The position numbers and the translations under genes were made by a program. Below the pieces are notes generated by a model. The model worked only from the letters and a program-made list of their open reading frames with translations, was not told where the DNA came from and did no database searches. From Parapristionchus giblindavisi (lineage: Eukaryota; Nematoda; Chromadorea; Rhabditida; Diplogasteridae), in NCBI GenBank assembly GCA_943737045.1, contig CALSFV010000009.1, positions 682,001 through 746,000 on the forward strand: a stretch of 64,000 nucleotides of DNA. The letters run 5' to 3'. Position 1 is the stretch's first letter. Each line of letters begins with the position of its first letter. Shown one piece after another: positions 4,651 through 61,832 of this stretch.

Positions 4651-5650
4651 AACTGGGTTGTTTTGGAAATTGTTAAAGAAATAATTATTATAAAATCGAT
4701 TACAATACTGATACTCATAGCAAGCTCGCAAATTGCACAGAATCAATATAATACAGCTAAAGATGATATAATTTGTGAAGAATATGTATTGTTGATATTG
4801 TGCTGATATATGAACAGTGTATGAACTTCACTAATTTTTTTGCATTAATATTTTTCACTATATTTCTTGATTTATACCCTGATTGATACGATAGAATATT
4901 ATATTTAAACTTTTTTCATTTAAAATCTCTAAATGTGCTCGCATAATCTGAAATGGTATTATGAGATGTACAGGGAAAACAAAACAAATCTTCGAGGTTA
5001 AAAATACAGCCAATTGTAGAGTATGTTCAACCACATTTTTATTATAATATTTTTTAACAATTTCGAAAAAGATTACCGTATCACTCCTTTCTCTTCTTAT
5101 CTTAGGCATACACAGGCCGGCTACCACTGCTAGTCAACAATCTGCCCCAGAGCCTGAAATTTGAGTCGCGTCGCGGTCACGCGCGCGTGTGTTTGCACCA
5201 ATGAAGACTTCGCTTCTTTCCCTTGTGACAACCTCTCCTTTCCTTGCTAACTGGCATGGTCTTCTATCAATCACGCCAATTACCGATTTACATTGATCTC
5301 ATGGCTTATCATTATGATTTTGCCTTATAAGAAACGTTTTGTACTCAGTTATTCTTTTCGCATGAAACATTTCATTAAAGGAGCTTACTTTCTTTGTACT
5401 ACAAACTCAACGGAAATTTGTCATTGTTTCGTATTCACTTAATTTTCATTGGAAAATGTCACTACTTTATTCATTTCTTTTCTTTAACGACACGATGTCA
5501 TTCATTTATCTTTCCCATTGTTCCCGTCAAGATACAAATATGCTTTACTATATATATTTTCAGGTCACCTATAATGGCCGTCAAATATAAATTAATTATA
5601 TTTTAATACTATTACATAATATTCAAATGAACAATATTATTAAAAAAAGG
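3300..5650. mobile_element. Long foldback element F1, unit 1 copy
   Basis: The left half (for example GACGGCCAGTATAGGTGACC near 3370 and the GTGACCGCGACGCG block near 4067) reappears in reverse complement in the right half (GGTCACCTATAATGGCCGTC near 5563 and CGCGTCGCGGTCACGCG near 5167). The arms are about 1 kb each and noticeably diverged. Copies lie at 36780-39470 and 55930-59060, with a partial one at 30600-31600. The outer arm segment is the decayed exon linked to the acidic pseudogene, so the element may have arisen around a gene fragment. It has no transposase. Edges are approximate. Confidence 0.7.
4570..4652. repeat. GA/GATA microsatellite
   Basis: Runs of gagagata and gaga lie within foldback F1. 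The equivalent repeat is pure GA at 57524-57556 in unit 3 and nearly absent in unit 2 (38455-38462), so the length varies between units. Confidence 0.85.
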
Positions 5651-6182
5651 TAAGGGATGAAGCATAAATTGTTAGACAAAACAATAAAATGACACTATAT
5701 TTTATAGCTTTGAACTGCATATTTTTCAGTAAGAGAGGGAGCAAAACAAGTCCTTCAACGTTCCCTTGGAAGAAATATCCCTCGCTTGGTTTGGCAACAA
5801 TTATATGTACCTTGTTGGAAACGTAAGCGATTATACCTTATGTTAGACAACAATCACAATAGACTGCTCTAACAATATGCCATTTTTTGGAAAGTCAAAC
5901 AATAGAGGATTAATTTTGAGAGAGTTTCTATGCTGAGCGGTCATTCTTGCTCTGAAAGTAATGAGAGACTGCGGAAGAGAATAGCTATCTACATAAAACA
6001 AAAAAATCAGCAACTGAATTTTTTTTTGGTATATTGGAGAGAAAATGTTCATGTTTATGTTAAGTATGGTAATTACAGGCAGAATTTGAGGCATTGGAAT
6101 AAAGTGTTCCACTGCAACGAACCATCAAAAGCATTCGCACACATCCTCATCTTCTTCGTATACTATCGTCGCTGTCGATGTC

Positions 6183-6341
6183 ATGGTTGTTCCAAAGAAA
6201 TCCAAGAATGCCCCGACTCGCGGTCCACTACGCCCCATCCGTCCAATCTCTGCGTTCACATCGTCGTACCGCCGCCGCCGTCACACTTGCGCCACTTTCG
6301 TATCAGCCGTCAAGCACGTCCTCAATGGTATAAGAGAGTGA
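6183..6341 (+). CDS. Possible 52-codon basic ORF
   Basis: The frame begins MVVPKKSKNAPTRG and contains SSYRRRRHTC. It is repeated at 40009-40167 with two amino-acid changes (Ile to Ser, Ile to Val). The stretch is GC-richer than its surroundings and coding-like, but the other two frames are also open across most of it. No splice sites or promoter were firmly placed. Both changes are nonsynonymous, which argues against constraint. Treat it as a candidate only; I know no family match. Confidence 0.2.
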   Translation: MVVPKKSKNAPTRGPLRPIRPISAFTSSYRRRRHTCATFVSAVKHVLNGIRE

Positions 6342-6801
6342 TGCATTGATATCAAATGAACATCGTGTAAGGCGAGAAGACCATCGGCTATGATGAGAAA
6401 ATGGTACCAATTATTCAAGAACGATGAATACTTCGACTACGAAGACAAGTCAATGAACGTTGATTATATTTTGTCACGCAATAAAGAAATTAAAATTTAA
6501 AGAAATTAAAAATTGCGTTGTTACATTTTCAGTTCAAGAGATACTTTACAGTTTACGATGAGATGTTGAGCACTCAGCACATGAGATAAGGAGCGGGGAG
6601 AGTAGTACATTCATGAAGAATTAACTCACAACGGAATGCTCACAATTATGTAGCTGGCAATTCAGTTGATATTTTAACGCTGATATTCTTTGTGACTAGA
6701 ATATATTTCAACTTTAAAAAGGCCATCAAAAGTTTCGATTCATTAATATTTCATGCAAAATATCGGCAAAAATCTCCAAAACAGTTTGAAAAAATAGCTA
6801 A

Positions 6802-6902
6802 AGTGCTTACAACACCGAGGATTCGATCTGCCAAGTTCAGCAACGGCCTAGTTAGTATGTACTTGGATCGGAGACGGCTTGGGAATCCTGGGTGTTGTAA
6901 GG
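6802..6902 (+). pseudogene. 5S rRNA-derived sequence in a hairpin, unit 1
   Basis: Positions 6824-6902 match the 3' two-thirds of eukaryotic 5S rRNA: gatctgccaagttcagcaac, gttagt, acttggatcggagacggc, tgggaatcctg, gtgttgtaag. The internal control region C-box part (acttggatcggagacggc) is kept. It has a 4-base insertion (atgt) after gttagt. The 5' third of 5S is missing. Just upstream, 6806-6823 holds cttacaacac...ggattc, the reverse complement of the 5S 3' end, so the whole forms a hairpin. This is a pseudogene or a 5S-derived repeat, not a functional 5S gene. Confidence 0.8.
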
Positions 6903-7592
6903 AATAACGTGATCTCTAGTATCAAGATCAAAGATCAAAGTGAAATAAATGATGTACGGTAGATGAGGACCTAGCGGGAAGAGCACCGAAAAGTCAGCAT
7001 CGACAAATACGTGAAAAAATCCTAACAATTATCGACCTCCTTTCTTCAATAATAACTTCGAAGAACTCGAAATTTCATGAAGCACTAGTAAACCAATCGA
7101 TCGGGCTCATACTTGGCCAGATTTTGTATCACTCATGGGCTAATATCTCTGCCAAGTTTGGAGCTTGCAGCTTCATTGGTCACAAAGGCTCATCTGAGTC
7201 AAGTTATGAGATTGCAATTAATAGGCGAATACTTTGGGTTGCTACTGTAACTCGGAAACTGGCATTGCTAATATAATATATATTTGAGTTTATTTGACTA
7301 TTTTTGAATCGACATTCTCTGAAAGCATGAAAATTTTTCAGTGCTCTGCATTTTTTGCAGGTTAATAGAGAAATAAGTATCGATTGGTTATACGCTTGTA
7401 AGAAGAAATGCATCGGATGTGGCTCTCGTTTCTTCAAGAAAAGTGTCCTTTCCGGTGCTTTATGAAGCAATCACAAGCCTTCTGTATCATAAAATTGGTT
7501 TATCTTTTCTCGTTCACTCTGTTCGCCTCTTATCTCTAATATTTTTTCACTATTTCTTGTATATAAGAAGCAATTATATTTCGCTAAAATCA

Positions 7593-7599
7593 TATAAAA
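7593..7599 (+). promoter_or_regulatory. TATA box of secreted cysteine-rich gene, unit 1
   Basis: TATAAAA lies 36 bp before the start codon at 7629, leaving a very short 5' leader (caattcatattgaggaacatagac region). The same box and spacing occur at 41415 in unit 2. Confidence 0.6.
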
Positions 7600-7628
7600 G
7601 CAGTTAATTCATATTGAGGAACATAGAC

Positions 7629-10600
7629 ATGAAGACGATCTTGATTCTGGTGTCGATAGCGGCCTATATTCACATTGGTAAGTGTTCTAATATCTCTGTC
7701 TGTAAGTATTATATTATAATTAACTTATTACACTAACAAAGTCGGTTTCAGCCCTAACTAAATGTGAACTTACACCGGCTAATCTTTCGCCCGATTACTT
7801 GCCACCAGGCTATAGACGGAGTAATGCTACAATGATAAAAAATGGAATGCTCGGATGTAGTGACAATGAGGGTAGCACTTCTTCAGTTTTATGGGTGAGA
7901 TGTTGATGGAAAAAATATGACAAAACATTACTTGGAAACTCGTTCGAAGTTTAAAAGGCGTTCTCGCTAAGATGGCAAGCAAAGTGGCACAGTTGGTGAA
8001 AATCGTTTCTATGCGCTCAAACTTCACAGATGGAGTGCCTAGGAGTGGGATACACTTCAGCCAAAAAATTGGACTCCAAATGTGATCTTTGATCTTTGAT
8101 CTCGCGAAAAATAAAGTTGAGATTTTCCTATCTTGTTATATACCATTCGAAAGAGCGCAAAAAGTTATGCTAGAATATAAAATTTCAGAGCTCTAGGGCT
8201 AGTATAGCTCCCGTTATGTGCGAAAAACCAATTTTTTTGGACGTTTTCAATCTTTAAAAAAAATAAATCAGCACTTTACAATAATCTCCGGGGAATTTCA
8301 CTGACGCTATCTTGTAGCAAATTTCATGTAGAATTTAATAAAAATTAATTGAGAAAAATCGATTTTGTCGGAATATCACTTTTAAGCCAACGCTATCGCC
8401 CGATCGAGCTCATTTTCCTAGGGTGGGTTCGAACCCCACCCCAGGACAATGTTTTTTGCTGATTTTTCACTGGCTTTCTAATGCTGCCCAAGGCTTTTGC
8501 CAATGTGTATGACCTTAAGAAAGTGGTTTTCTTGACATATTTAGCTGATAAAGTATGAGTTCTTGACTCTACTATAAAGTCACGATCGCTGAATAGCACG
8601 AGAGAGTTATTTCATTCTACAAAATGATAGGGCACGTCTGTCTATTTGTTTGTTTGTTTATGTGTCCGTCACACGCCCCTTTCTCCTTTAGGATTGTTTA
8701 GAAACACTTCATTGGGTATTCAAATGTACGACTCTGTCGTATGACAGTTACCTGGTTGATACTGCCAGCGGTGATATGCTCAGATAAAAGAATAAGCCAT
8801 GCATGCCTGCGAACAAGACTCATTTGGGGGCAAACCATTAGTACGGTTCCAGATTCATTTTTTCGGTTCCAGATTATGTAATGTATCACTCCATACCATA
8901 AGAGTACAATAATGTACTTTCTAACGTGAACATCGATTGGTTGAGCTTGTATGAATCTGGACCCGTACTAATAGTTTGCCCCCAAATGAGTCTTGTTCGC
9001 AGGCATTCATGGCTTAATCTTTTATCTGAGCATATCACCGCTGGCAGGATCAACCAGGTAACTGTCATACGACAGAGTCGTACATTTGCATACCCAATGA
9101 AGTGTTTCTAAACAATCCTAAAGGAGAAAGGGGCGTGTGACGGACACACAAACAAACAAACAAATAGACAGACGTGCCCTATCATTTTGTAGAATGAAAT
9201 AACTCTCTCGTGCTATTCAGCGATCGTGACTTTATAGAAGAGTCAAGAACTCATACTTTATCAGCTAAATATGTCAAGAAAACCACTTTCTTAAGGTCAT
9301 ACACATTGGCAAAAGCCTTGGGCAGCATTAGAAAGCCAGTGAAAAATCAGCAAAAAACATTGTCCTGGGGTGGGGTTCGAACCCACCCTAGGAAAATGAG
9401 CTCGATCGGGCGATAGCGTTGGCTTAAAAGTGATATTCCGACAAAATCGATTTTTCTCAATTAATTTTTATTAAATTCTACATGAAATTTGCTACAAGAT
9501 AGCGTCAGTGAAATTCCCCGGAGATTATTGTAAAGTGCTGATTTATTTTTTTTAAAGATTGAAAACGTCCAAAAAAATTGGTTTTTCGCACATAACGGGA
9601 GCTATGCTAGCCCTAGAGCTCTGAAATTTTATATTCTAGCATAACTTTTTGCGCTCTTTCGAATGGTATATATCAAGATAGGAAAATCTCAACTTTATTT
9701 TTCGCCAGATCAAAGATCAAAGATCACATTTGGAGACCAATTTTTTGGCTGAAGTGTATCCCACCCCTAGGCACTCCATCTGTGAAGTTTGAGCGCATAG
9801 AAACGATTTTCACCAACTGTGCCATCTTCCATCCCGTTCACTGCATTCTTACCGAGAACGCCTTTTAAGTTTATTACGTATCATATTTTTCTATTAAATT
9901 CAAGTTTCCAGGTGAGCTCAAAAACCAGTTTTTATGGAGTTATCGAGTTTTTCTATTGCTACGATGACAGGTGATTGAGAATTTAAATTGTAGAAAAAAA
10001 AACAATCAGTTAATCGAAAATTGTAACTAAATTACCTGCATGTCTGTGATAAATTATAACATTTCAGATGGGCCACTCAATCAGGATACATGCTGGATCC
10101 GCAGGATAAGGTTCGTTTGCCGGCTTTTTACAAGATAAAAAAAACACATAATATTTTGCAGATTGGATGTGCATTGCCGCTAGATTGGTCACCAAGTCGG
10201 TGCATTCAACGTTTCACAGTTGACTTATTTCTGAACAACTTACAATTAAATTTACAATTTAATGATCAATTGGCGCAGAACCATTTCTGGACATTGTGGA
10301 ATATTAACTTTTTTTGGTTTTTTCCCGACGAAATATATATTTTATCGACATGCTCAGCATGAAACATGTGGTTGAAGCAAAAATAAATAAATAAGTCACA
10401 GAAATACTCTCGATAGGGATTGATCTTAAAGAGGGTACCAAATACGAGGTTTCAACGTCGTTCGTTTTCCAAAATTTCTTGAACCAGAAGCGCTATTATG
10501 AAATTCCGTGTTTGTTGCAGATTGTATCACGCCGTGCAATAAGTCCTTTACTGTGTAATTTTCTTTCCGCTGTGTCCTCTGTCTAGTCAAACACCCTCTC

Positions 10601-13600
10601 GGGCCCCTGTTCTTACTTTCCTTTTTGCTCACGATGTGACTTAATTCTGCCCCGCCTTCACGCATCTTAGTGTAATATAGTGTGTATTCTTCTGTTTCAC
10701 AAACTGAAACACAAAATTTCGGGTATGTGTTTTGAACCTGATAAGGGAAGCACCAGTTGCGACGGAAACAATTCTGAAAGTGACCACCATGGGTGGCTAG
10801 CAGGGCTGGGATTTTTGTTTGGTTTTTCTGCAAAAACCAAAAAATAACAAAAAAATCGGATAAAGAAAATTTACACAAATTTGCTTGAAAAGGAAGTTTA
10901 TGATCAGTTTTCTTGTTCATTTTCACCGTAAGACAATATTGGTGAGTGTAATATTACGGAATAGTGTTTTTCTTGAGTGACTATGCTTGTCAGGCAGGGC
11001 TATAAATGACATCTACCAAAATACAAAACCAATATTATCTCAAATTATGGATGCCCCGGAATACCGTAATTCGAGACATGAAAGTTCGTTGTTGCGACAA
11101 GGAAATGCCAGGCACAATTCGAATTTGAAAGCTGAATATAGAGAAAATCGCAAAAAAAGGGAATCCAAACCGGCGTTGTGCGATTACAAGCGTTGATTAC
11201 TAACAACTGCTCCACGGGAAACGCTTTTGGCCTTTCGAATTTATTAGAGAATACAGAATGCCACAATTGGTCCCAAGTTCTTCATGATAATATGTAGCGC
11301 ACCCCATACATTTTCATACCATCACAAGGTGAGGATCGACCCACTCTATACGGCTCTCTTTAGCATCTACCCACTATAAAAGGGTCCTTTTTTAAGCTAA
11401 AAATTACAATTCAACCGAAAAATAACGAAATCGACCCACTATATTAAAATAAAACGGTGAGGGTACCGAAAATGTATGGCGCACCCTCAATTTCCTGATT
11501 CCCCTACATTAACTAATCAATAAAATGCTGCCGATATCAAATCGACAACGAATTTATCTTTTATGTTTGTTTTAGTTGTTGATTTTAAGAATTTTGACTC
11601 TGAATGAATAATAGTTGCTATTCAAAGGAAGAGTAAAACGAGATAATGTTGAAATATTCTGGGAACAGTGGGAAAAAATAATTATTTTATTTTTTTTGGT
11701 TTTTTTGGGTTTTTTTGTTTGGTGAGAAATTTTTTTTTGTTGAAACCAAACAAAAAATTTTTTGGTCGAAATAATTTTTTGTCCCACCCTGGTGGCTAGG
11801 GTTGAAGGAGAGATGCTAAAAATATTGTTTCTATTACAGAAAAGAGCGGGGTTTGGGGAATTTACAAAAGATGAATCAAGAATATTCCATTTATTAATAA
11901 ATCGATTCGACAAGAAAGATCTAAATCTGCGACGACTGGAAATTCTATGAACGTGAAGTTTTTGGGGGTGACCGCGATTTCGGTGAAGTGAAATGGAGAA
12001 ATTGAAAATTTTTACGGGGTCAATATCTATAAAGCAATTAAAAATCTTGAAAGTAGTTGTCACATCGATGATGTTTCTATGGGTGGCGAGGGATTGAAGG
12101 TCAAGAAGAGACGGCCTATGGGATACGACATCTACGAAGAACCATTCTGGAATGCGTTTTAAGGACAGATTCAACATGCTCACCGATATCGCTACATTAG
12201 CGACGGACATCCATCACTCCCTTTATGTCCTTATTTTCTTGTTACGCATATTATGATGGAATAAAGAATAAGATAAGATAAGATAAGATGCTCTTGCATT
12301 GATGAGGACGAAGTGGACCAAAGTTCACTACATTACTCAAACTGCGTCCGGCGCCTCCCCTTTGGCAGAGAGTGCGGGGAGCACCTTTAGACTGGCCTCT
12401 TAAAAATGAGAGATCAGGCCTCCCCCTTGCTGTTCTGATAATGCAGAACTTCTGCAAAAATACCCATGTAAAAAAAAAAGAAAAGCACAAGATTTCGGAC
12501 CTCAATCTCTACCGCTATTGTTGAACAGGTCAATGTGTGCGTTACCAGTGCCATTAGCTTATACATATGTGCATTATTGTCGTCGGTTTCCATCCGTTAG
12601 ACGTCTCCTTCCTGAATATTGGACATAGCTTTGTGAGCCTGCATTGTGGATTTTTTCGGAGCCAGGATTTAAAGGTGGAATGTTCATGCAAATCTCTTGC
12701 ATCTCGCTTATGCAAGTGTAAAGTGATATGCAAGAAGAGTGAGTGACACATCATCAATCCCTTGGCGCAGTGGTAACACTTCTCACTAGATAGCGCATGG
12801 CCGTGGGTTCGAATTCTATTGCCGAACTTTCCTATTTTCAAAAAGCGCGCCTTTGCCTGCGATTGCAAGCATGATTCATTCATGTTTCTAGCTATCAATA
12901 AGCTGAATTAGCGTTGAATAAATGGTGTACTGTATGTAGAATAACTTTTGCTAACTTTCTGTGTTTACAGTTTGTTCACGAAAATATTCGCGGGGGTCCA
13001 CCTTTAACCCCAGAACCTCTCGTTTCGGACCTCTTGCTTTATCGGGTAACATACCTCCCCTAAAAGTACCACACAGTATTTAAAAAAGTCACAACAGTTA
13101 TTCCACATTGAGAGATAGAAATCGTTGTTCGCATACAACATTAACCACAGTCTTTGATTTTAAACGTTTGAAGCCTTTTTATTCAAACGTTTGCAGTATT
13201 ACTTTAGTAAGTAAATCAATGTACAGGAGTGATATGCATGCGCGTATTTAAAATAATTGTAACAATAAAGCTATTAAGTAATGATGTGCTTCGTGATATG
13301 TCAAATATAGTTTTTTTCTCTTTCAGAGCAAATATCCCATGTAATTTCAGCTTGCAACTTCAGACATGTCATCGACGAAAACAGGATTTTCCTCGCCATG
13401 ACGATGAATTCAACCAGATCGTGCCCGAATGGCCAACAACTTAAAGGATCTGGACCAAATGTGGAATCTTACATTGGAAAATTATTAAAATGCAACGAGA
13501 ACCAGGAAATATTTATCGATGAAAAGCTGTTGGGGAAAAAAGATGTACTTGTATCATGCGAAGGTGAGTGGAATTTGGTAATGGATGCTGCATTCAAAGT

Positions 13601-18699: not shown

Positions 18700-19680
18700 A
18701 GGGAGCGTAAACACTTTTTAAAGAACTCGTATTGAAGAACTCGTCGAGTAGAACAACTTTCATGTTGGACATTTTGTCTGAGACTCATGTACAAGAGAGT
18801 TACACACGTTTTTCTGCTAATTTTGAGTGAAACGAAAATAAAATATTTTTAAAACAAAAAAGTGCAGTCCAATGTTTGCCTTATCTTATAGAGCAAAAAA
18901 TTCCGCGTCGAATAAGGGAAAAAAATCAAAAATCGAAGGACCCGTCTTTTGAGATAAATGAACCTGAAGATGACCCGAAAATATTTTTGTTTTCAAACCC
19001 CCTCATGTTTGTACTCATATTGAAGAGCTCGTCGAGTAGAACAACTTTCATGTTGAAGGTTTTGTCTGAAACTCATGTGCAAGAGAAAAACATGAGTTTT
19101 ATTTATTCGCACGGTTGTTCACACAATTTTGAGTAAAACGAAAGTAAAATATTTTTTGTGTACAAAGCGATTACGCCTATATTGTAGAACGCAAAAATCC
19201 ATACTTACTTTATTGTTTCACGAAAAAAAATTGTAGACCCCCATGCTGAAAAAAAAATGGCCTGGAAATTAGTATTGAAAAAAAGTTGTCGTAACCTTGC
19301 CATGTTTATACTCATTTTAAAGTACTCGTCAAGTGCATCATTTTTTATGTTGGTCGTATTCTATGAAAGTCGTTTGTTCTCAAGATACAAGCGATAATAA
19401 AGATTTGGATCCAATAAATCTTAATTCATGTATTTCTCTTGTACATGAGTTTCAGACAAAACGTTCAACATGAAAGTTGTTCTACTCGACGAGTTCTTCA
19501 ATATGAGTACAAACATGAGGGGGTTCGAAAACAAAAATATTTTCGGGTCATCTTCAGGTTCATTTATCTCAAAAGACGGGTCCTTCGATTTTTGATTTTT
19601 TTCCCTTATTCGACGCGGAATTTTTTGCTCTATAAGATAAGGCAAAAATTGGACTGCACTTTTTTGTTTTAAAATTTTAA
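18700..19680. repeat. Inverted repeat block replacing the 3' part of the protease gene
   Basis: Text at about 18870-19100 (cttatagagcaaaaaattcc, cctcatgtttgtactcata, agaacaactttcatgttgaa) reappears in reverse complement at 19430-19660. A third, diverged copy is at 54690-54990. The mirrored open frames starting MPYLIEQKIPRRIREKN on both strands are therefore one sequence read twice, not two genes. Confidence 0.75.
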
Positions 19681-21368: not shown

Positions 21369-24971
<3,603 letters not shown>

Positions 24972-29190: not shown

Positions 29191-29400
29191 TTAAATTGAA
29201 TCTTTGAAGGAACACATCTTCGCGGGAGTTCGGACGAAAGGTTAGTAGCGAGAGAAGGAGACGGGAAGACCGAGGGTAACAAGTGAATAGGGCGATTAAT
29301 AGAAGAACAAAGTAAAGATCAAAGATCAAAAATCATCTTTAAAAGGAAAAAAAGCGAAGATGTGATGAGAAGAGGAAGCCCGGATTTAATCCCGGGTTTA

Positions 29401-30012
29401 AGCCCCAATCTAAGCCCCAATCTAAGCCCCAATCTAAGCCCCAATCTAAGCCCCAATCTAAGCCCCAATCTAAGCCCCAATCTAAGCCCCAATCTAAGCC
29501 CCAATCTAAGCCCCAATCTAAGCCCCAATCTAAGCCCCAATCTAAGCCCCAATCTAAGCCCCAATCTAAGCCCCAATCTAAGCCCCAATCTAAGCCCCAA
29601 TCTAAGCCCCAATCTAAGCCCCAATCTAAGCCCCAATCTAAGCCCCAATCTAAGCCCCAATCTAAGCCCCAATCTAAGCCCCAATCTAAGCCCCAATCTA
29701 AGCCCCAATCTAAGCCCCAATCTAAGCCCCAATCTAAGCCCCAATCTAAGCCCCAATCTAAGCCCCAATCTAAGCCCCAATCTAAGCCCCAATCTAAGCC
29801 CCAATCTAAGCCCCAATCTAAGCCCCAATCTAAGCCCCAATCTAAGCCCCAATCTAAGCCCCAATCTAAGCCCCAATCTAAGCCCCAATCTAAGCCCCAA
29901 TCTAAGCCCCAATTTAAGCCCCAATTTAAGCCCCAATTTAAGCCCCAATTTAAGCCCCAATTTAAGCCCCAATTTAAGCCCCAATTTAAGCCCCAATTTA
30001 AGCCCCAATTTA
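29401..30012. repeat. 12-bp tandem array, 51 copies in two blocks
   Basis: The unit AGCCCCAATCTA is repeated 42 times without visible error, then AGCCCCAATTTA nine times (29905-30012). A few scrambled units (ggggcttatatttgggctt) sit at 28341-28385. Because 12 is divisible by 3, long frames exist on both strands (up to 299 codons), but they have no splice or start support. The minus strand carries GGGG every 12 nt. Confidence 0.97.
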
Positions 30013-30044
30013 ATTTAAGCCCGAATCCCCCCTGACCTCGATGA

Positions 30045-32449: not shown

Positions 32450-33973
32450 GGGGGGGTGACATTTCGGCAACCGACATTTCGGCAACCGTCATTTCGGCAA
32501 CCGACATTTCGGCAACGGGGCATAACTCGGTTCGTAGGGGTCATAGAAACTTGGGATGGGTATCATTGTGATCAGCATCAGTAACACTACCGTAATCTAC
32601 CGTAACCCAGTTCGGTGGGTCAAATCAAGTTCGGTGGGTCAGATCGGGGATAACTCGGTTCGTAGGGGTCATAGAAACACGAGATGGGTATCAATGTGAT
32701 CATCACCAGCAACACTACCGTAATCTACCGTAATCCAGTTCGGTGGGTCAGATTAAGTTCGGTGGGTCAGATTTCACTAAAAATTGTCGGAACAGCCACT
32801 ACTTGTGCGAAATCATTATCAGCTATTGTAAACTACAGTAACCTACCGTAACCCGGTTCGGTGGGTCAGATCAAGTTCGGTGGGTCAGATTTAACCAAAA
32901 ATTGTCGGAATGGCGACTACGTGTGCTTTATCATTATGAGCTATTGCAAACTACCGTAATCTACCGTAACCCGGTTCGGTGGGTCAGATCAAGTTCGGTG
33001 GGTCAGATTTCACTACAAACTGTCGGAATGGTCACTACGTGTGCGATATCATTATGAGCTGTTGCAAACTACCGTAATCAGGTTCGGTGGGTCAGATCAA
33101 GTGCGGTGGATCAGATCTCAGTATAAATTGTCCAAATGGTCAGTATGTGCGGGGTATGATTATGAGTTATTGTAAACTACCGTAATCCACCGTAATCCGG
33201 TTCGGTGCGTCAGATCAAGTGCGATGTGTCATATTTCACTAAAAAGTGTCCAAATGGTAGTTTACAATAACTCATAATCATACCACGCGCATAGTAATCA
33301 TTTGGACAATTTTTAGTGAAATCTGACCCATCGCACTTGATCTGACCCACCGAACCTGGTTACGGTAGTTTGCAACAGCTCATAATGATATCGCACACGT
33401 AGTGACCATTCCGACAATTTTTAGTGAAATCTGACCCACCGAACTTGATCTGACCCACCGAACCGGGTTACGGTAGATTACGGTAGTTTGCAATAGCTCA
33501 TAATGATAACGTACACGTAGTGGCCATTCCGACAATTTTTGGTTAAATCTGACCCACCGAACTTGATCTGACCCACCGAACCGGGTTACGGTAGATTACT
33601 GTAGTTTACAATAGCTGATAATGATTTCGCACAAGTAGTGGCTGTTCCGACAATTTTTAGTGAAATCTGACCCACCGAACTTAATCTGACCCACCGAACT
33701 GGATTACGGTAGATTACGGTAGTGTTGCTGATGATGATCTCATTGATACCCATCTCGTGTTTCTAAGACCCCTACGAACCGAGTTATCCCCGATCTGACC
33801 CACCGAACTTGATTTGACCCACCGAACTGGGTTACGGTAGATTACGGTAGTGTTACTGATGCTGATCACAATGATACCCATCCCAAGTTTCTATGACCCC
33901 TACGAACCGAGTTATGCCCCGTTGCCGAAATGTCGGTTGCCGAAATGACGGTTGCCGAAATGTCACCCCCCCC
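32450..33973. mobile_element. 1.5-kb foldback F4 with internal satellite
   Basis: Outer ends GGGGGTGACATTTCGGCAACC and the inverse GGTTGCCGAAATGTCACCCCC. Each arm is a series of roughly 110-120 bp repeats built from CTACCGTAATCTACCGTAA, CGGTTCGGTGGGTCAGATC and CACTAAAAATTGTCGG. The symmetry centre is near 33215. There is no coding content. An end block (gacatttcggcaaccgacattt) is itself repeated about four times. Confidence 0.88.
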
Positions 33974-41450: not shown

Positions 41451-44400
41451 ATGAAGACGATCTTGATTCTGGTGTCGATAGCGGCCTATATTCACATTGG
41501 TAAGTGTTCTAATATCTCTGTCTGTAAGTATTATATTATAATTAACTTATTACACTAACAAAGTCGGTTTCAGCCCTAACTAAATGTGAACTTACACCGG
41601 CTAATCTTTCGCCCGATTACTTGCCACCAGGCTATAGACGGAGTAATGCTACAATGATAAAAAATGGAATGCTCGGATGTAGTGACAATGAGGGTAGCAC
41701 TTCTTCAGTTTTATGGGTGAGATGTTGATGGAAAAAATATGACAAAACATTACTTGGAAACTCGTTCGAAGTTTAAAAGGCGTTCTCGCTAACAAGGGAA
41801 CTATTTAACCTTACCACAAAATTCTCTAATTTTGATATGCTAGCGTAAATCTACATGGAATAAGGTTTCTAAAAAGTTATGTCAAAGGTTCCACATTCGC
41901 GTTTTAAGCTTATTTTTGGACCTCTGAAAATTGATTTTTTAGGCCTTTTTGTGCCTTTTTGTACCTTTTTGGACCTTTTTGGGTCTCATTTTTGTGTATT
42001 TGTGGCTTTTTTGGGGCCTTTTTGTCTTTTTGGGGCTTTTGGACTCTTTGGTGTCTATTTGGTTAAATTCAGTTAATTTTTCAGATACCCAAAAAGGGGC
42101 TTAAAGGGCGAATGTGGAACCTTTAATATAACTTTTTAGAAACCTTATTCGATGTAAATTTACGCTAGCATATCAAAATTAGAGAATTTTGTGGTAAGGT
42201 TAAATAGTTCCCTTGTAAGATGGCAAGCAAAGTGGCACAGTTGGTGAAAATCGTTTCTATGAGCTCAAACTTCACAGATGGAGTGCCTAGGAGTGGGATA
42301 CACTTCAGCCAAAAAATTGGACTCCAAATGTGATCTTTGATCTTTGATCTCGCGAAAAATAAAGTTGAGATTTTCCTATCTTGATATATACCATTCGAAA
42401 GAGCGCAAAAAGTTATGCTAGAATATAAAATTTCAGAGCTCTAGGGCTAGTATAGCTCCCGTTATGTGCGAAAAACCAATTTTTTTGGACGTTTTCAATC
42501 TTTAAAAAAATAAATCAGCACTTTACAATAATCTCCGGGGAATTTCACTGACGCTATCTTGTAGCAAATTTCATGTAGAATTTAATAAAAATTAATTGAG
42601 AAAAATCGATTTTGTCGGAATATCACTTTTAAGCCAACGCTATCGCCCGATCGAGCTCATTTTCCTAGGGTGGGTTCGAACCCCACCCCAGGACAATGTT
42701 TTTTGCTGATTTTTCACTGGCTTTCTAATGCTGCCCAAGGCTTTTGCCAATGTGTATGACCTTAAGAAAGTGGTTTTCTTGACATATTTAGCTGATAAAG
42801 TATGAGTTCTTGACTCTACTATAAAGTCACGATCGCTGAATAGCACGAGAGAGTTATTTCATTCTACAAAATGATAGGGCACGTCTGTCTATTTGTTTGT
42901 TTGTTTATGTGTCCGTCACACGCCCCTTTCTCCTTTAGGATTGTTTAGAAACACTTCATTGGGTATTCAAATGTACGACTCTGTCGTATGACAGTTACCT
43001 GGTTGATACTGCCAGCGGTGATATGCTCAGATAAAAGAATAAGCCATGCATGCCTGCGAACAAGACTCATTTGGGGGCAAACCATTAGTACGGTTCCAGA
43101 TTCATTTTTTCGGTTCCAGATTATGTAATGTATCACTCCATACCATAAGAGTACAATAATGTACTTTCTAACGTGAACATCGATTGGTTGAGCTTGTATG
43201 AATCTGGACCCGTACTAATAGTTTGCCCCCAAATGAGTCTTGTTCGCAGGAATTCATGGCTTAATCTTTTATCTGAGCATATCACCGCTGGCAGGATCAA
43301 CCAGGTAACTGTCATACGACAGAGTCGTACATTTGCATACCCAATGAAGTGTTTCTAAACAATCCTAAAGGAGAAAGGGGCGTGTGACGGACACACAAAC
43401 AAACAAACAAATAGACAGACGTGCCCTATCATTTTGTAGAATGAAATAACTCTCTCGTGCTATTCAGCGATCGTGACTTTATAGTAGAGTCAAGAACTCA
43501 TACTTTATCAGCTAAATATGTCAAGAAAACCACTTTCTTAAGGTCATACACATTGGCAAAAGCCTTGGGCAGCATTAGAAAGCCAGTGAAAAATCAGCAA
43601 AAAACATTGTCCTGGGGTGGGGTTCGAACCCACCCTAGGAAAATGAGCTCGATCGGGCGATAGCGTTGGCTTAAAAGTGATATTCCGACAAAATCGATTT
43701 TTCTCAATTAATTTTTATTAAATTCTACATGAAATTTGCTACAAGATAGCGTCAGTGAAATTCCCCGGAGATTATTGTAAAGTGCTGATTTATTTTTTTT
43801 AAAGATTGAAAACGTCCAAAAAAATTGGTTTTTCGCACATAACGGGAGCTATACTAGCCCTAGAGCTCTGAAATTTTATATTCTAGCATAACTTTTTGCG
43901 CTCTTTCGAATGGTATATATCAAGATAGGAAAATCTCAACTTTATTTTTCGCCAGATCAAAGATCAAAGATCACATTTGGAGACCAATTTTTTGGCTGAA
44001 GTGTATCCCACCCCTAGGCACTCCATCTGTGAAGTTTGAGCGCATAGAAACGATTTTCACCAACTGTGCCATCTTCCATCCCGTTCACTGCATTCTTACC
44101 GAGAACGCCTTTTAAGTTTATTACGTATCATATTTTTATATTAAATTCAAGTTTCCAGGTGAGCTCAAAAACCAGTTTTTATGGAGTTATCGAGTTTTTC
44201 TATTGCTACGATGACAGGTGATTGAGAATTTAAATTGTAGAAAAAAAACGATCAGTTAATCGAAAATTGTAACTAAATTACCTGCATGTCTGTGATAAAT
44301 TATAACATTTCAGATGGGCCACTCAATCAGGATACATGCTGGATCCGCAGGATAAGGTTCGTTTGCCGGCTTTTTACAAGATAAAAAAAACACATAATAT

Positions 44401-57560: not shown

Positions 57561-57877
57561 GGGTTGTTTTGGAAATTGTTAAAGAAATAATTATTATAAA
57601 ATCGATTACAATATTGATACTCATAGCAAGCTCGCAAATTGCACAGAATCAATATAATACAGCTAAAGATGAAAATAATTTGTGAAGAATATGTATTGTT
57701 GATATTGTGCTGATATATGAACGGTGTATGAACTTCACTAAATTTTTTGCATTAATATTTTTCACTATATTTCTTGATTTTTACCCTGATTGATACGATA
57801 GAATATTATGTTTAAACTTTTTTCATTTAAAATCTCTAAAGGTGCTCGCATAATCTGAAATGGTATTATGAGATGTA

Positions 57878-58366
57878 CAGCCCCGCAGAATCTCCCTTCG
57901 TGTATGTGATCCCGGGGATCCCCGGGATCCCCCCGTGCTCCTCGATTTTTTGTGCTGTGAATATTGAATATGAGGTGTGACAATTGTTCTTATTGTTTTC
58001 CTCTTTACTTGAACTATTTTATCAAGGACAGTTTGGAATTTTATCAATTACGTAGCCCGAGAACAGATATTGAAATTATTAATTTTTAGCAAATGCCGCG
58101 CAAAAATATTGAAGAACTCGCGCACATTCGGCTTTATTAATCTCAAAGTGACTTTTTTCGGCATTTCTATTTCTTAGGATAATTTAATTGACAAGCGTTC
58201 GAAAATTCCAAATTTTCCTTGATAAAATAGTTCAAGTAAAGAGGACAACAATAGGGACAATTGTCACACCTGATATTCAATATTCACAGCACAAAAAATC
58301 GAGGAGCACGGGGGGATCCCGGGGATCCCCGGGATCACATACACGAAGGGAGATTCTGCGGGGCTG
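57878..58366. mobile_element. Mariner-like foldback MITE, 489 bp, TSD TA
   Basis: Ends CAGCCCCGCAGAATCTCCC and GGGAGATTCTGCGGGGCTG, flanked by TA (57876-57877, 58367-58368). Units 1 and 2 show the empty site (gagatgtacaggg at 4963, gagatgtagaggg at 38780). The arms contain GATCCCGGGGATCCCCGGGA, itself palindromic, and unusually high GC for this window. Confidence 0.93.
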
Positions 58367-60002
58367 TACAGGGAAAACAAAACAAATCTTCGAGGTTAAA
58401 AAAAACAACAAATTGTGGATTATGTTCAACCACATTTTTATTATAATATTTTTTAACATTTTCGAAAAAGATTACCGTATCACTCCTTTCTCTTCGTATG
58501 TTAGGCGTACATAGGCAGGCTACCACTGCTAGTCAACAATCTGCCCCAGGTCTGAAATTTGAGTCGCGTCGCGGTCACGCGCGCGTGTGTATTCACCAAT
58601 GAAGACTTCACTTCTTTCCCTTGTGACAACCTCTTCTTTCACTGCTAACTGACATTATCTTCTATCATCATGCGAATTACCACTTCACATTGATCTTACG
58701 GCTTATCATTATGATTTTGCCTCATAAGAAACGTTTTTTTTTTACACAGTTATTCTTTTCACATGAAATATTTCATTAAAGGAGCTTACTTTGTTTGTAC
58801 AACAAACTCAACGGGAATTTGTCATTGTTTCGTATTCACTTACTTTCATTGGAAAATGTCACTACTTTATTCATTTCGTTCCTTTAACGACACGATGTCA
58901 TTCATTTACCTTTCCCATTGTTCCCGTCAAGATACAAATATGCTTTACTATATATATTTTCAGGTCACCTATAATGGCCGTCAAATATAAATTAATTATA
59001 TTTCTTAATACAATTACATAATATTCAACTGAACAATATTATTTAAAAGGTAAGGGATGAAGCATTAATGGTTAAACGAAATAATATAATGACATTAACG
59101 AAATAATATAATGACATTAGGAAGCATTAATGGTTAAACGAAATAATATAATGACATTAGGCTTATAGCTTCCATGAACTGCAGATTTTTCGGTAAGAGA
59201 GGGAGCAAAACAAGTCCTTCAACGTTCCCTTGGAAGAAATATCCCTCGCTCGCTTCGCTTGGCAACAATTATATGTACCTTGTTGGAAACGTAAGCGATT
59301 ATAACTTATGTTAGACAACAATCACAATCGACTACTCTAACAATATACCATTTTTGGCAAGTCAAACAATAGAGGATTAATTTTGAGAGAGTTTCTATGC
59401 TGAGCGGTATTTTTTGCTCTGAAAATAATGAGAGACTACGGAAGAGAATATGTGAGCTATCTATCTACACAAAACACGCTATTTGAAAAAAAATCAGCAA
59501 CTGAAGTATTTTTTGGTATATTGCCGAAAAAAATTTCATGTGTATATTAAGTATGATAATTACAGGCAGAATTTGAAGCATTGCAATAAAATATTCCAAA
59601 GCAAAGAACCAACCAACATGAATCGAGTAACAAACACTGGGAGAACTGGAAGCATAAGTACTCAATGGCATAAGAAAATGATGCTGTAATACAAAATCAA
59701 CATCGTGTAAGGCGAGAAGACAATCGGTCATGATGAGAAAATGGTACCAATCGTTCAAGGAAGACGAGTACGACCACGAACCTGCCAAGGAACCTTGAAT
59801 ATAAACACATAATAAAGAAATTAAAAATATATATTGCGTTGTTACTTATACTGTTCAAGAGATACTTTACAATTTACAATGAGAAGTTAAGCACACAGAA
59901 TTGCACATGAGATAAGGAGGGATGAGAGTAGTACATTCATGGAGAAATAACTCACAACGGAATGCTCCGCTGGCGGAAGGCAATTGATATTTTAAAACTG
60001 CT

Positions 60003-61181
60003 ATTTATGAGAGACTATCTGACTCAGTGAACATATTTTGCTTATGGCTTGGCACTTGGTCAAAAAGTGATATGAACCGATCGGGCCCCAATCGTGCACA
60101 GCTGTAGTAGGGGGTGGGATGAGCTCGCAGACGGAGTTTGGGTTCGTCATATCTACATCCTCAATAAATAACGTAAGTTCGATAAAATGGCATCGAAATT
60201 TCAAAGTTTACGGATTCGCTCGATATGTGTATACGACGATGGGCAATAATAAGCAGGTAAATCCCACCAAGTGTCATCCCGATCCAAAACTGCAAGGCCC
60301 AGAAATAATTTAAAAATCAATAAATATATTTTGTTTTATTTTTCCTACAATTGCCTCTCGGTGGCTGACTTTTTTTATTCCTTCAATTTGACGAGTATTC
60401 ATTAGTGTAACTATTGTATGAAAATGAACTAAAACAAATTGGGAAAAAGTTGCCTTATTCCCGAAAAAACCACGACTAAGAACGAATTATCGTGTGCCGA
60501 TTACGGTAATGCAAATGCGTTAATTCAAAATTCAGCATTTTTCTTCTTTTTTTCCCGAGATATGTGTCATATTACTCCTTAGATATTCATACAACAAGCT
60601 AATAATGAAAGAAAACAATAGTATGCTATCGAAATCGAATGCTAAATAATAGTAATTACCGAATTTTGAATTCCCGCATTTGCATTACCGTAATTGGCAC
60701 ACGATAATTCTTTCCGTTTGCCATGAAAAGGCGAATTAGTCGTGGTTTTTTCGGGAATAAGGCAACTTTTTCCCAATTTGTTTTAGTTCAATTTCATACA
60801 ATAGTTACACTAATGAATACTCGTCAAATTGAAGGAATAAAAAAAGTCAGCCACCGAGAGGCAATTGTAGGAAAAATAAAACAAAATATTTTTATTGTTT
60901 TTTTTAAATTATTTCTGGGCCTCACGGTTTTGGATCGGGATGACACTTGGTGGGATTTACCTGCTTATTATTGCCTATCGTCGTATACACATATCGAGCG
61001 AATCCGTAAACTTTGAAATTTTGATGCCATTTTATCGAACTTACGTTATTTAGCGAGGATGTAGATCTGACGAATCCAAACTCCGTCTGTGAGCTGATGC
61101 CACCCCCTACTACAGCTGTGCACTATTGAGGCCCGATCGGTGCCAAGAGAATGTCACTTGAGCCAGATAGTCTCTCTTATT
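60003..61181. mobile_element. Long foldback element F3, unit 3 copy
   Basis: Second copy of the element in intron 1 of gene B. It starts ATGAGAGACTATCTGACTCAG and ends CCAGATAGTCTCTCTTAT, with ATT on both flanks. The inner part differs (reverse-complement pair GAATTATCGTGTGCC and GGCACACGATAATTC). Units 1 and 2 lack it at the corresponding place (ctgatattctttgtgac, 6679). Confidence 0.8.
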
Positions 61182-61274
61182 CATTGTGAATTGAATCTAT
61201 AGTTCGATTTATTAAGATCTGACGCAAAGTATCGAAAAAAAATCTCCAAAAAATTTTGAAAATATAGCAAAAGT

Positions 61275-61355
61275 GCTTACAACACACATGATTCCAAAGC
61301 CGTCTCCGATCCAAGTACTAACTGGGCCCACCGTTGCTAAAATTGGCAGACCAGA
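61275..61355 (-). pseudogene. 5S rRNA-derived sequence, opposite strand, unit 3
   Basis: The minus strand reads CTGGTCTGCCAATTTTAGCA, ACGGTGGGCCCAGTTAGTAC, TTGGATCGGAGACGGCTTTG, then GAATCATGTGTGTTGTAAG. In units 1 and 2 only a short antisense piece remains at this place, followed by the sense copy. So this looks like the other arm of an originally symmetric 5S element. The canonical gtccagttagtacttgg text is better kept here (cccagttagtacttgg). Confidence 0.75.
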
Positions 61356-61832
61356 CTGGATGCCTTGTTTTCAACGAGGAATGGTCGTAGGCGAGATAGA
61401 GTGCGTGTGAGGTCGGGGACTATTCAGCGCTCACCACAAGTAAACGTATAGATGGAGAAATCGATGAATGAACTTTGTTCTTTGATCTTTGAGGCTCGTT
61501 CTATCATTCTTTTGTTGCAAGTGGTGTGAAATGGAAATTGAATAGATGATCACCTCTTATAATATACCTACTACGTAATATTGTACATACAGAGCACTTG
61601 ATGAGCAATGAGATGAATATTGTACATACTGAGCACTATACGTCTGATTATATGTATATAGCTGGTCACTCATTTTGCAGCAAAAGTTCACAAGTGCGAC
61701 AGCATCTTTTGGAACAAAGTAATCAGCATGGAGAACTGACTCTAGTCATGATATTTTCATCTCAATAGCCAGGCTGACCCTCCCCTTCGAAGTCATTGAG
61801 GGATAATAAAAGATTGTTTGTGCACCACATTT

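Follow-up and report, generated by a model that had tools for sequence, protein, structure and literature searches.

A foldback element with ribosomal DNA in both arms

Analysis of the window, i.e. the whole 64-kb stretch of DNA analysed in this study, revealed a foldback element whose long inverted arms make up most of its length and contain a piece of ribosomal DNA each (Table 1). The inverted repeat described here by the first-pass annotation is real, with arms of about 0.9 kb, and its outermost parts (7951-7977 and 9842-9868) form an outer inverted repeat that is 89% complementary. Arms making up most of the element were also found in other copies; L015 and L016 are represented by a single arm in the stretch taken. 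The arm contains GGTTCGAACC, which we take to be a tRNA-like B box, and no tRNA was called at this position. The best Rfam match in the element was MIR841, a microRNA precursor family (90.9 bits against a cut-off of 200, E 9e-20). A microRNA gene was not accepted, as this match reflects the long hairpin.

Table 1. Positions of the element, its parts and associated features. Positions are those of the window unless a contig is named.
Feature	Position	Strand	Basis or remark
Foldback element, copy 1	7951..9868	.	TTAA at both ends; element proper 7955-9864
TTAA target-site duplication, left	7951..7954	+	Comparison of family ends; no empty site for this insertion
TTAA target-site duplication, right	9865..9868	+	Comparison of family ends; no empty site for this insertion
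Left arm	7974..8858	+	885 nt, 98% complementary to right arm
Right arm	8951..9835	-	885 nt, 98% complementary to left arm
Stretch between arms	8859..8950	.	Longer in other copies, e.g. L012
5' ETS-derived part, left arm	8716..8748	+	Aligned to own rDNA upstream of 18S start
18S nt 1-67, left arm	8749..8815	+	2 mismatches in nt 1-57
18S nt 1-67, right arm	8994..9060	-	nt 1-53 exact
5' ETS-derived part, right arm	9061..9093	-	Aligned to own rDNA
Predicted intron 2 of host gene	7895..9911	+	Exons read by eye; prediction only
Copy 2 of the same insertion	41773..44115	.	Interrupted; inside ~34-kb duplication
424-bp MITE-like insertion in copy 2	41793..42216	.	Inverted ends (CAAGGGAACTATTTAACC), TAA duplication; absent from copy 1
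ETS-18S segment, left arm of copy 2	42963..43062	+	Alignment to own rDNA
ETS-18S segment, right arm of copy 2	43241..43340	-	Alignment to own rDNA
Clustered units with ETS-18S head	C3:1617541-1848540, C11:1613025-1689560, C49:694492-776056, C48:8035-24953, C451		Single orientation

The homology of both arms to 18S rRNA, also claimed in the annotation, was borne out by Rfam and by the alignment to the species' own rDNA that the annotation had proposed. In Infernal alignments to the Rfam family SSU_rRNA_eukarya, both arms match from the first position of the model, with E values of 5.7e-7 and 9.2e-6 and scores below the gathering threshold. When aligned to the species' own rDNA, the arms are 90-91% identical over 100 bp, comprising 33 bp of external transcribed spacer (ETS) and 67 bp of 18S, with E values of 1.5e-33 for 8716-8815 (+) and 1.3e-34 for 8994-9093 (-). 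The right arm was said to keep canonical bases that the left arm has lost. Within 18S nt 1-57 this is true of two bases, but a third shows the opposite, being kept by the left arm and lost by the right. Apart from the ETS-18S segments listed in Table 1, queries with L030, L044 and L045 found no rDNA match in the 64-kb window.

The description of a single locus was incomplete, as a second copy of the same insertion was overlooked. This copy, whose left end is split by the 424-bp insertion, lies in a segmental duplication with an offset of about 34 kb (window ~1.8-20 kb and ~36-54 kb), of which a third, partial copy is found at ~55-64 kb. Identity between the duplicates is a mosaic, with 99.5% over 7968-12047 and 93.8% over 4663-7970, and may reflect conversion between the duplication copies.

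Placement of the element in a gene intron agrees with an open frame and with GT-AG exons read by eye, although the gene is a prediction only. Its predicted exons are 7629-7677, 7752-7894, 9912-9970, 10068-10110 and one from 10162, and no difference from the second copy was found in the five exon stretches compared. The protein had no homologue at E 1e-3 and no Pfam match.

Further foldbacks with other ends are present in the window at 666-1255, 18847-19674, 21693-22841, 32473-33964, 57874-58370 and 60048-61141. Those at 21693-22841 and 60048-61141 start with CTTGGCACTTGG, and the one at 32473-33964 has tandem repeats of about 118 bp inside. A 12-bp tandem array at 29220-30018 leaves several frames open (SPNL and QSKP repeats). 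The sole 5S rRNA match in the window, at 61274-61392 (-), is a gene or a pseudogene.

Copies, ends and target sites in the genome

The assembly searched comprises 251.4 Mb in 703 contigs. A total of 254 family ends (132 + 122, at most two mismatches) and 61 arms with the rDNA junction (29 + 32, at most three mismatches) were found, and the reversed-pattern control gave 0 in each case. The search for further copies suggested in the annotation thus showed that the element is not a lone misjoin. When arms less than 3.5 kb apart were joined, the 61 arms fell into 38 groups, of which 23 comprise two arms. The 38 probably include the C307 element twice, its arms being 6.2 kb apart, and the window's insertion also accounts for two groups (near C9:690 kb and 725 kb) through its duplication. 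A facing pair of 18S starts at C343:308882-309454 was missed by the junction pattern, so the number 61 falls short of the total and more diverged foldbacks exist.

For the comparison of ends, 49 ends from the fetched copies and the window were used, each included only if the BLAST alignment reached its first three bases; three further end rows were left aside as those of a distant relative. The predominant sequence, TTAAAAGGCGTTCTCG, was found at 40 of the 49 ends, and the remaining nine differ from it by one base, six of these nine belonging to the mirrored stretches L019/L020. The flanks at these ends are different, and the ends carry one of two subterminal sequences (L and R types), a different one at each end. 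A distant relative at L009:7858-8092 is about 70-71% identical over 211-243 bp and has the end TTAAAACGCGTTCTCC.

Flanks joined with one TTAA matched the genome across the join at five of 14 sites (L014, L018, L021, L026 with 100% over 224 bp, and L028; 40 of 7196 candidates scored), and L024 gave a partial match. No empty-site match was found at eight of the 14 sites, the window's own included, among the same 40 scored candidates. As the joined flanks with a single TTAA are uninterrupted elsewhere, insertion duplicates TTAA.

Classification by terminal sequences

Duplication of TTAA is common to Kolobok and piggyBac elements. The termini of piggyBac elements are of the CCC/GGG type, which does not occur at the ends of this family. 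Kolobok elements, which have been reported in nematodes, are described in the available part of the source as having a TTAA duplication and 5'-RR / YY-3' ends (PMC9587614), and the ends found in this study, 5'-AAGGCG ... CGCCTT-3' beside TTAA, follow that rule. Judged by these ends, membership in Kolobok is probable. The alternative that the element is of piggyBac rather than Kolobok type draws on the TTAA duplication and is unlikely, since the ends begin with 5'-AAGG, the purine-purine start of the Kolobok rule as given in that source (PMC9587614).

No transposase was recognised in the frames of the copies (frames of at least 80-90 aa listed, a few scanned with Pfam), so that mobilisation in trans is presumed. 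A search for PF13843 (DDE_Tnp_1_7) gave 0 candidates, with its control likewise silent (0 of 14 genomes). An acidic frame shared by L012, L039 and L048 matched 147 places in the genome when the query was taken from L048. A longer frame, of 412 aa at C8:383540-384778, has only sub-threshold C2H2 zinc-finger matches and no homologue at E 1e-3. The internal open reading frame, which lies in foldback loops (L048:872-1417), was rejected as a transposase and taken as a fragment of a multi-copy gene with a basic stretch followed by an acidic one.

Similarity of the two arms within elements

In 18 two-armed elements (one arm being short in three; first 60 columns left out), 262 private variants were counted: 71 are shared by the two arms of an element and 191 are confined to a single arm. 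Left out of this and the following comparisons of arms were L010, L011, L013, L020, L022 and L025, which are near-identical or mirrored, as well as window copy 2 and L046-L050. True pairs of arms gave 72 two-arm variants against a mean of 0.47 and a maximum of 2 in 200 re-pairings of the arms. Private variants common to both arms indicate that arms are homogenised within elements. The two arms of an element are on average 97.1% identical (15 pairs), compared with 95.6% for arms of different elements (579 pairs), among which single pairs reach up to 99.1%; in L028 the same stretch is missing from both arms. In a tree of 33 arms, the two arms of an element are sisters in eight of 13 elements; they are not in the other five, so homogenisation is incomplete or these elements have other histories. 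A single captured piece would reach both arms if conversion or template switching took place inside the palindrome.

The 18S window differs among copies by 1.6% against a mean of 2.55%, which is the 168th lowest value of 963 windows. Copy divergence over these 963 windows gave no sign of selection on the 18S part or of its conversion by rDNA. The rDNA piece is most likely a passenger.

Predicted hairpin and possible small RNAs

A total of 627 matches (reversed control 0), including a ~1.17-kb tandem array, were found for a pattern that we take to be the SL1 leader of nematodes, and the host is accordingly regarded as a nematode. Folding of the predicted element transcript with ViennaRNA gave -1640 kcal/mol for 1918 nt, compared with -443 to -473 for five mononucleotide shuffles, and 53 of the 57 18S bases are paired to the other arm in the predicted fold. 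The right arm contains 53 nt exactly antisense to 18S. The long hairpin pairing rRNA with its complement, as proposed in the annotation, therefore holds as a prediction. Because each arm carries the ETS-18S junction, RNA transcribed across the element would be double-stranded over the 18S start, and small RNAs against rRNA from the element are plausible on this model.

In Caenorhabditis elegans, according to the available part of the report, pre-rRNA decreases when the worms are fed dsRNA against 18S, and NRDE proteins become bound to it (PMC8450093); in view of this response a natural effect of the element is possible. It could be proposed that intronic copies are functional loci that are transcribed and diced and feed 22G-type antisense ribosomal siRNAs lowering pre-rRNA. 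The exact antisense stretch in the predicted hairpin and the nematode host, given the NRDE-associated response described for C. elegans (PMC8450093), agree with such a function; however, conservation of the 18S part among copies is unexceptional and self-targeting of rRNA would presumably be costly, and we consider it very unlikely. There is also a small chance, if anything slighter, that transcribed copies would act as built-in triggers of nucleolar RNA interference via siRNAs against the 18S/ETS start. If this were true, a mobile element would tune rRNA synthesis in this nematode, or be tolerated or policed through it. Given that C. elegans is described as lowering pre-rRNA on 18S dsRNA (PMC8450093), the nearly forty natural loci allow a direct test of the genome's tolerance for hairpins against its own ribosome.

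Source of the rDNA segment

The annotation had placed the start of the homology at the mature 5' end of 18S rRNA, and this is refuted by the alignments. For the reference arm (L012) the match is to rDNA type 1 and extends over 114 bp (88.6%, E 3e-37), consisting of 47 bp of 5' ETS and 18S nt 1-67; in the window copy 33 bp of ETS are aligned. By manual count, 10 of the 47 ETS positions differ from present-day rDNA, whereas none of 18S nt 1-57 does, both the reference arm and the consensus arm being identical to the gene there. A diverged ETS beside an unchanged 18S stretch is the pattern expected from fast evolution of the spacer in the host. The ETS sequences of the genome's two rDNA types are hardly alignable with each other, and the match to type 2 (C149) covers 70 bp and starts only 3 bp before the 18S start. 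In Rfam, L012 shows just 17 nt of 18S (14.6 bits, E 0.5), along with a weak match to CRISPR-DR49 (E 0.16), so the case for this copy comes from its BLAST match to the species' own rDNA. In 225 kb of other loci, mostly picked for carrying the element, all 138 matches are to the ETS-18S segment and no other rDNA was found.

The two rDNA types, C129 and C149 (L044, L045), have different ETS and 18S variable regions. Units of type 1 are at least 12 kb with a spacer of about 8 kb and those of type 2 about 7.1 kb; the types may be real variants or one may come from a second organism. The 18S core pattern occurs at 27 places in the genome.

Relatives without rDNA and the module outside foldbacks

Five copies with the same ends (L046-L050) were picked from places outside the list of rDNA junctions. 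L046-L048 have outer arms that are 77-84% identical to the reference in the end pieces and have no rDNA part; these three are therefore same-ended relatives without the host fragment, as in Pack-type elements. L049 (93%) and L050 (87%) are short and the whole inner arm is absent, so these two may be deletion derivatives, and the case for an older, rDNA-free state comes from L046-L048. Arms of the rDNA-bearing subfamily differ from their consensus by a mean of 2.55%. By these comparisons, the rDNA seems to characterise a single young subfamily.

In the inner arms the rDNA is part of a chimeric module of 47 bp of 5' ETS, 18S nt 1-67 and about 190 bp of other sequence. A pattern for 18S nt 1-35 occurs at 127 places, and among the 100 listed many are neither genes with the 18S core nor junction arms. 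Two of these places, both of them clustered units, were read (L055 and L056). Both share with the arm the 18S part and about 130-190 bp downstream, and in both the 18S homology breaks off where it does in the arm, after about nt 67; before the 18S, 43 bp of ETS are aligned in L055 and only 6 bp in L056. With L056 as query and 40 of 285 candidates scored, 32 of 46 matches combine the 18S end with the inner part in direct orientation; they are spread over 12 contigs, keep to one strand per contig and are often clustered (C3, C11, C49, C48, C451). With L055 as query, four units 3.8 kb apart were found on C49 with the inner part inverted. At 18S nt 39 both clustered copies differ from 18S and the arm does not, so the arm was not copied from either of them in its present form. 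The most economical scenario suggested by these alignments would be that rDNA was joined to the inner sequence a single time and that the product then reached two different contexts.

An internal deletion of 18S was considered, as CTGCGAAC..CTCATT after nt 57 resembles 18S nt 85-100 (11 of 2000 shuffles as good). This reading was dropped because L055 and L056 align straight to about nt 67 and then have the common junction AGCCTC.

The module contains CCAAT and octamer motifs, presumably those of histone genes. Histone gene clusters were rejected as a general explanation of the clustered units, the canonical histone arrays being on C74, C224, C216, C268 and C4. At distances of 1-3.3 kb from units on C457 and C3 there are three weak, partial matches to the histone fold, which are kept as a lead; the two C3 units concerned are without the 18S part.

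Proposed origin of the element

The annotation further suggested capture exactly at the rRNA 5' end, by an RNA-templated event or by breakage there. Neither is supported, as the segment begins 47 bp upstream, inside a chimeric module that is common to other repeats. Copying of mature 18S rRNA from its 5' end would accord with the identity of the consensus arm over 18S nt 1-57 and with the short aligned ETS in L056; but ETS precedes 18S in the reference arm and in L055, and the spacer match is to rDNA type 1. Inclusion of 5' ETS means that capture from mature rRNA fails, and the segment is not an rRNA retropseudogene, i.e. a copy of processed rRNA. RNA-templated capture is thus contradicted for mature rRNA and highly improbable overall; a pre-rRNA template is possible. 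An assembly artefact or a degenerate rDNA repeat, which the difficulty of assembling rDNA arrays and the mirrored stretches L019/L020 and L021/L022 might suggest, can practically be dismissed in view of 38 arm groups, differing flanks, near-constant ends and empty sites.

We therefore interpret the element as a non-autonomous, TTAA-inserting foldback DNA transposon with Kolobok-type ends, belonging to a young subfamily with the ETS-18S chimeric module in both arms (probability roughly 0.8). In the proposed sequence of events, a segment of rDNA (or pre-rRNA) would have been joined once to the inner sequence, and the resulting module would have been inserted into a foldback, either in one of its arms or at its centre. 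The module would then have become palindromic through copying from arm to arm, and a TTAA transposase supplied in trans would have spread the element. Intronic copies, if transcribed, would form a hairpin of about 0.9 kb that includes the exact 18S antisense stretch.

Comparison with known systems

Foldbacks with the ETS-18S junction in both arms were not found reported in the open PMC literature, in searches partly aimed elsewhere. The PALTTAA repeats of C. elegans are likewise palindromic TTAA repeats of a nematode, and we know of no rDNA content in them. From the Kolobok superfamily the present element differs in its very long foldback arms and in having no transposase in the frames read.

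Tm1 of root-knot nematodes, a Mutator-like element, is likewise a foldback family, some members of which carry a host RNA-processing motif, and it is described as having MITE-like derivatives and one putative autonomous copy (PMC3169594). In contrast to the 4-bp TTAA and the rDNA inside the arms observed in this study, the duplications of Tm1 are 9 bp long and a histone hairpin lies between its repeats, as far as the available part of that report goes (PMC3169594). Tetris and other Drosophila foldbacks share the long inverted arms, the modular structure and a shorter MITE-like relative, and a sign of homogenisation was reported in two of three complete copies (PMC4079207). Their captured content is different, and rDNA is unmentioned in the available text (PMC4079207).

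Pokey of Daphnia, in the piggyBac superfamily, resembles the present element in being a TTAA-inserting DNA transposon with sequence derived from rDNA spacers (PMC4912750). According to the available part of the source, Pokey has IGS/ITS-derived repeats at the 5' end and also inserts into 28S (PMC4912750), whereas the present element has ETS and 18S coding sequence in both long arms. DNA transposons with pieces of rDNA spacer are thus already known from Pokey; the family described in this study shows arms that are kept alike within elements, and this would account for how a single captured piece can end up in both arms.
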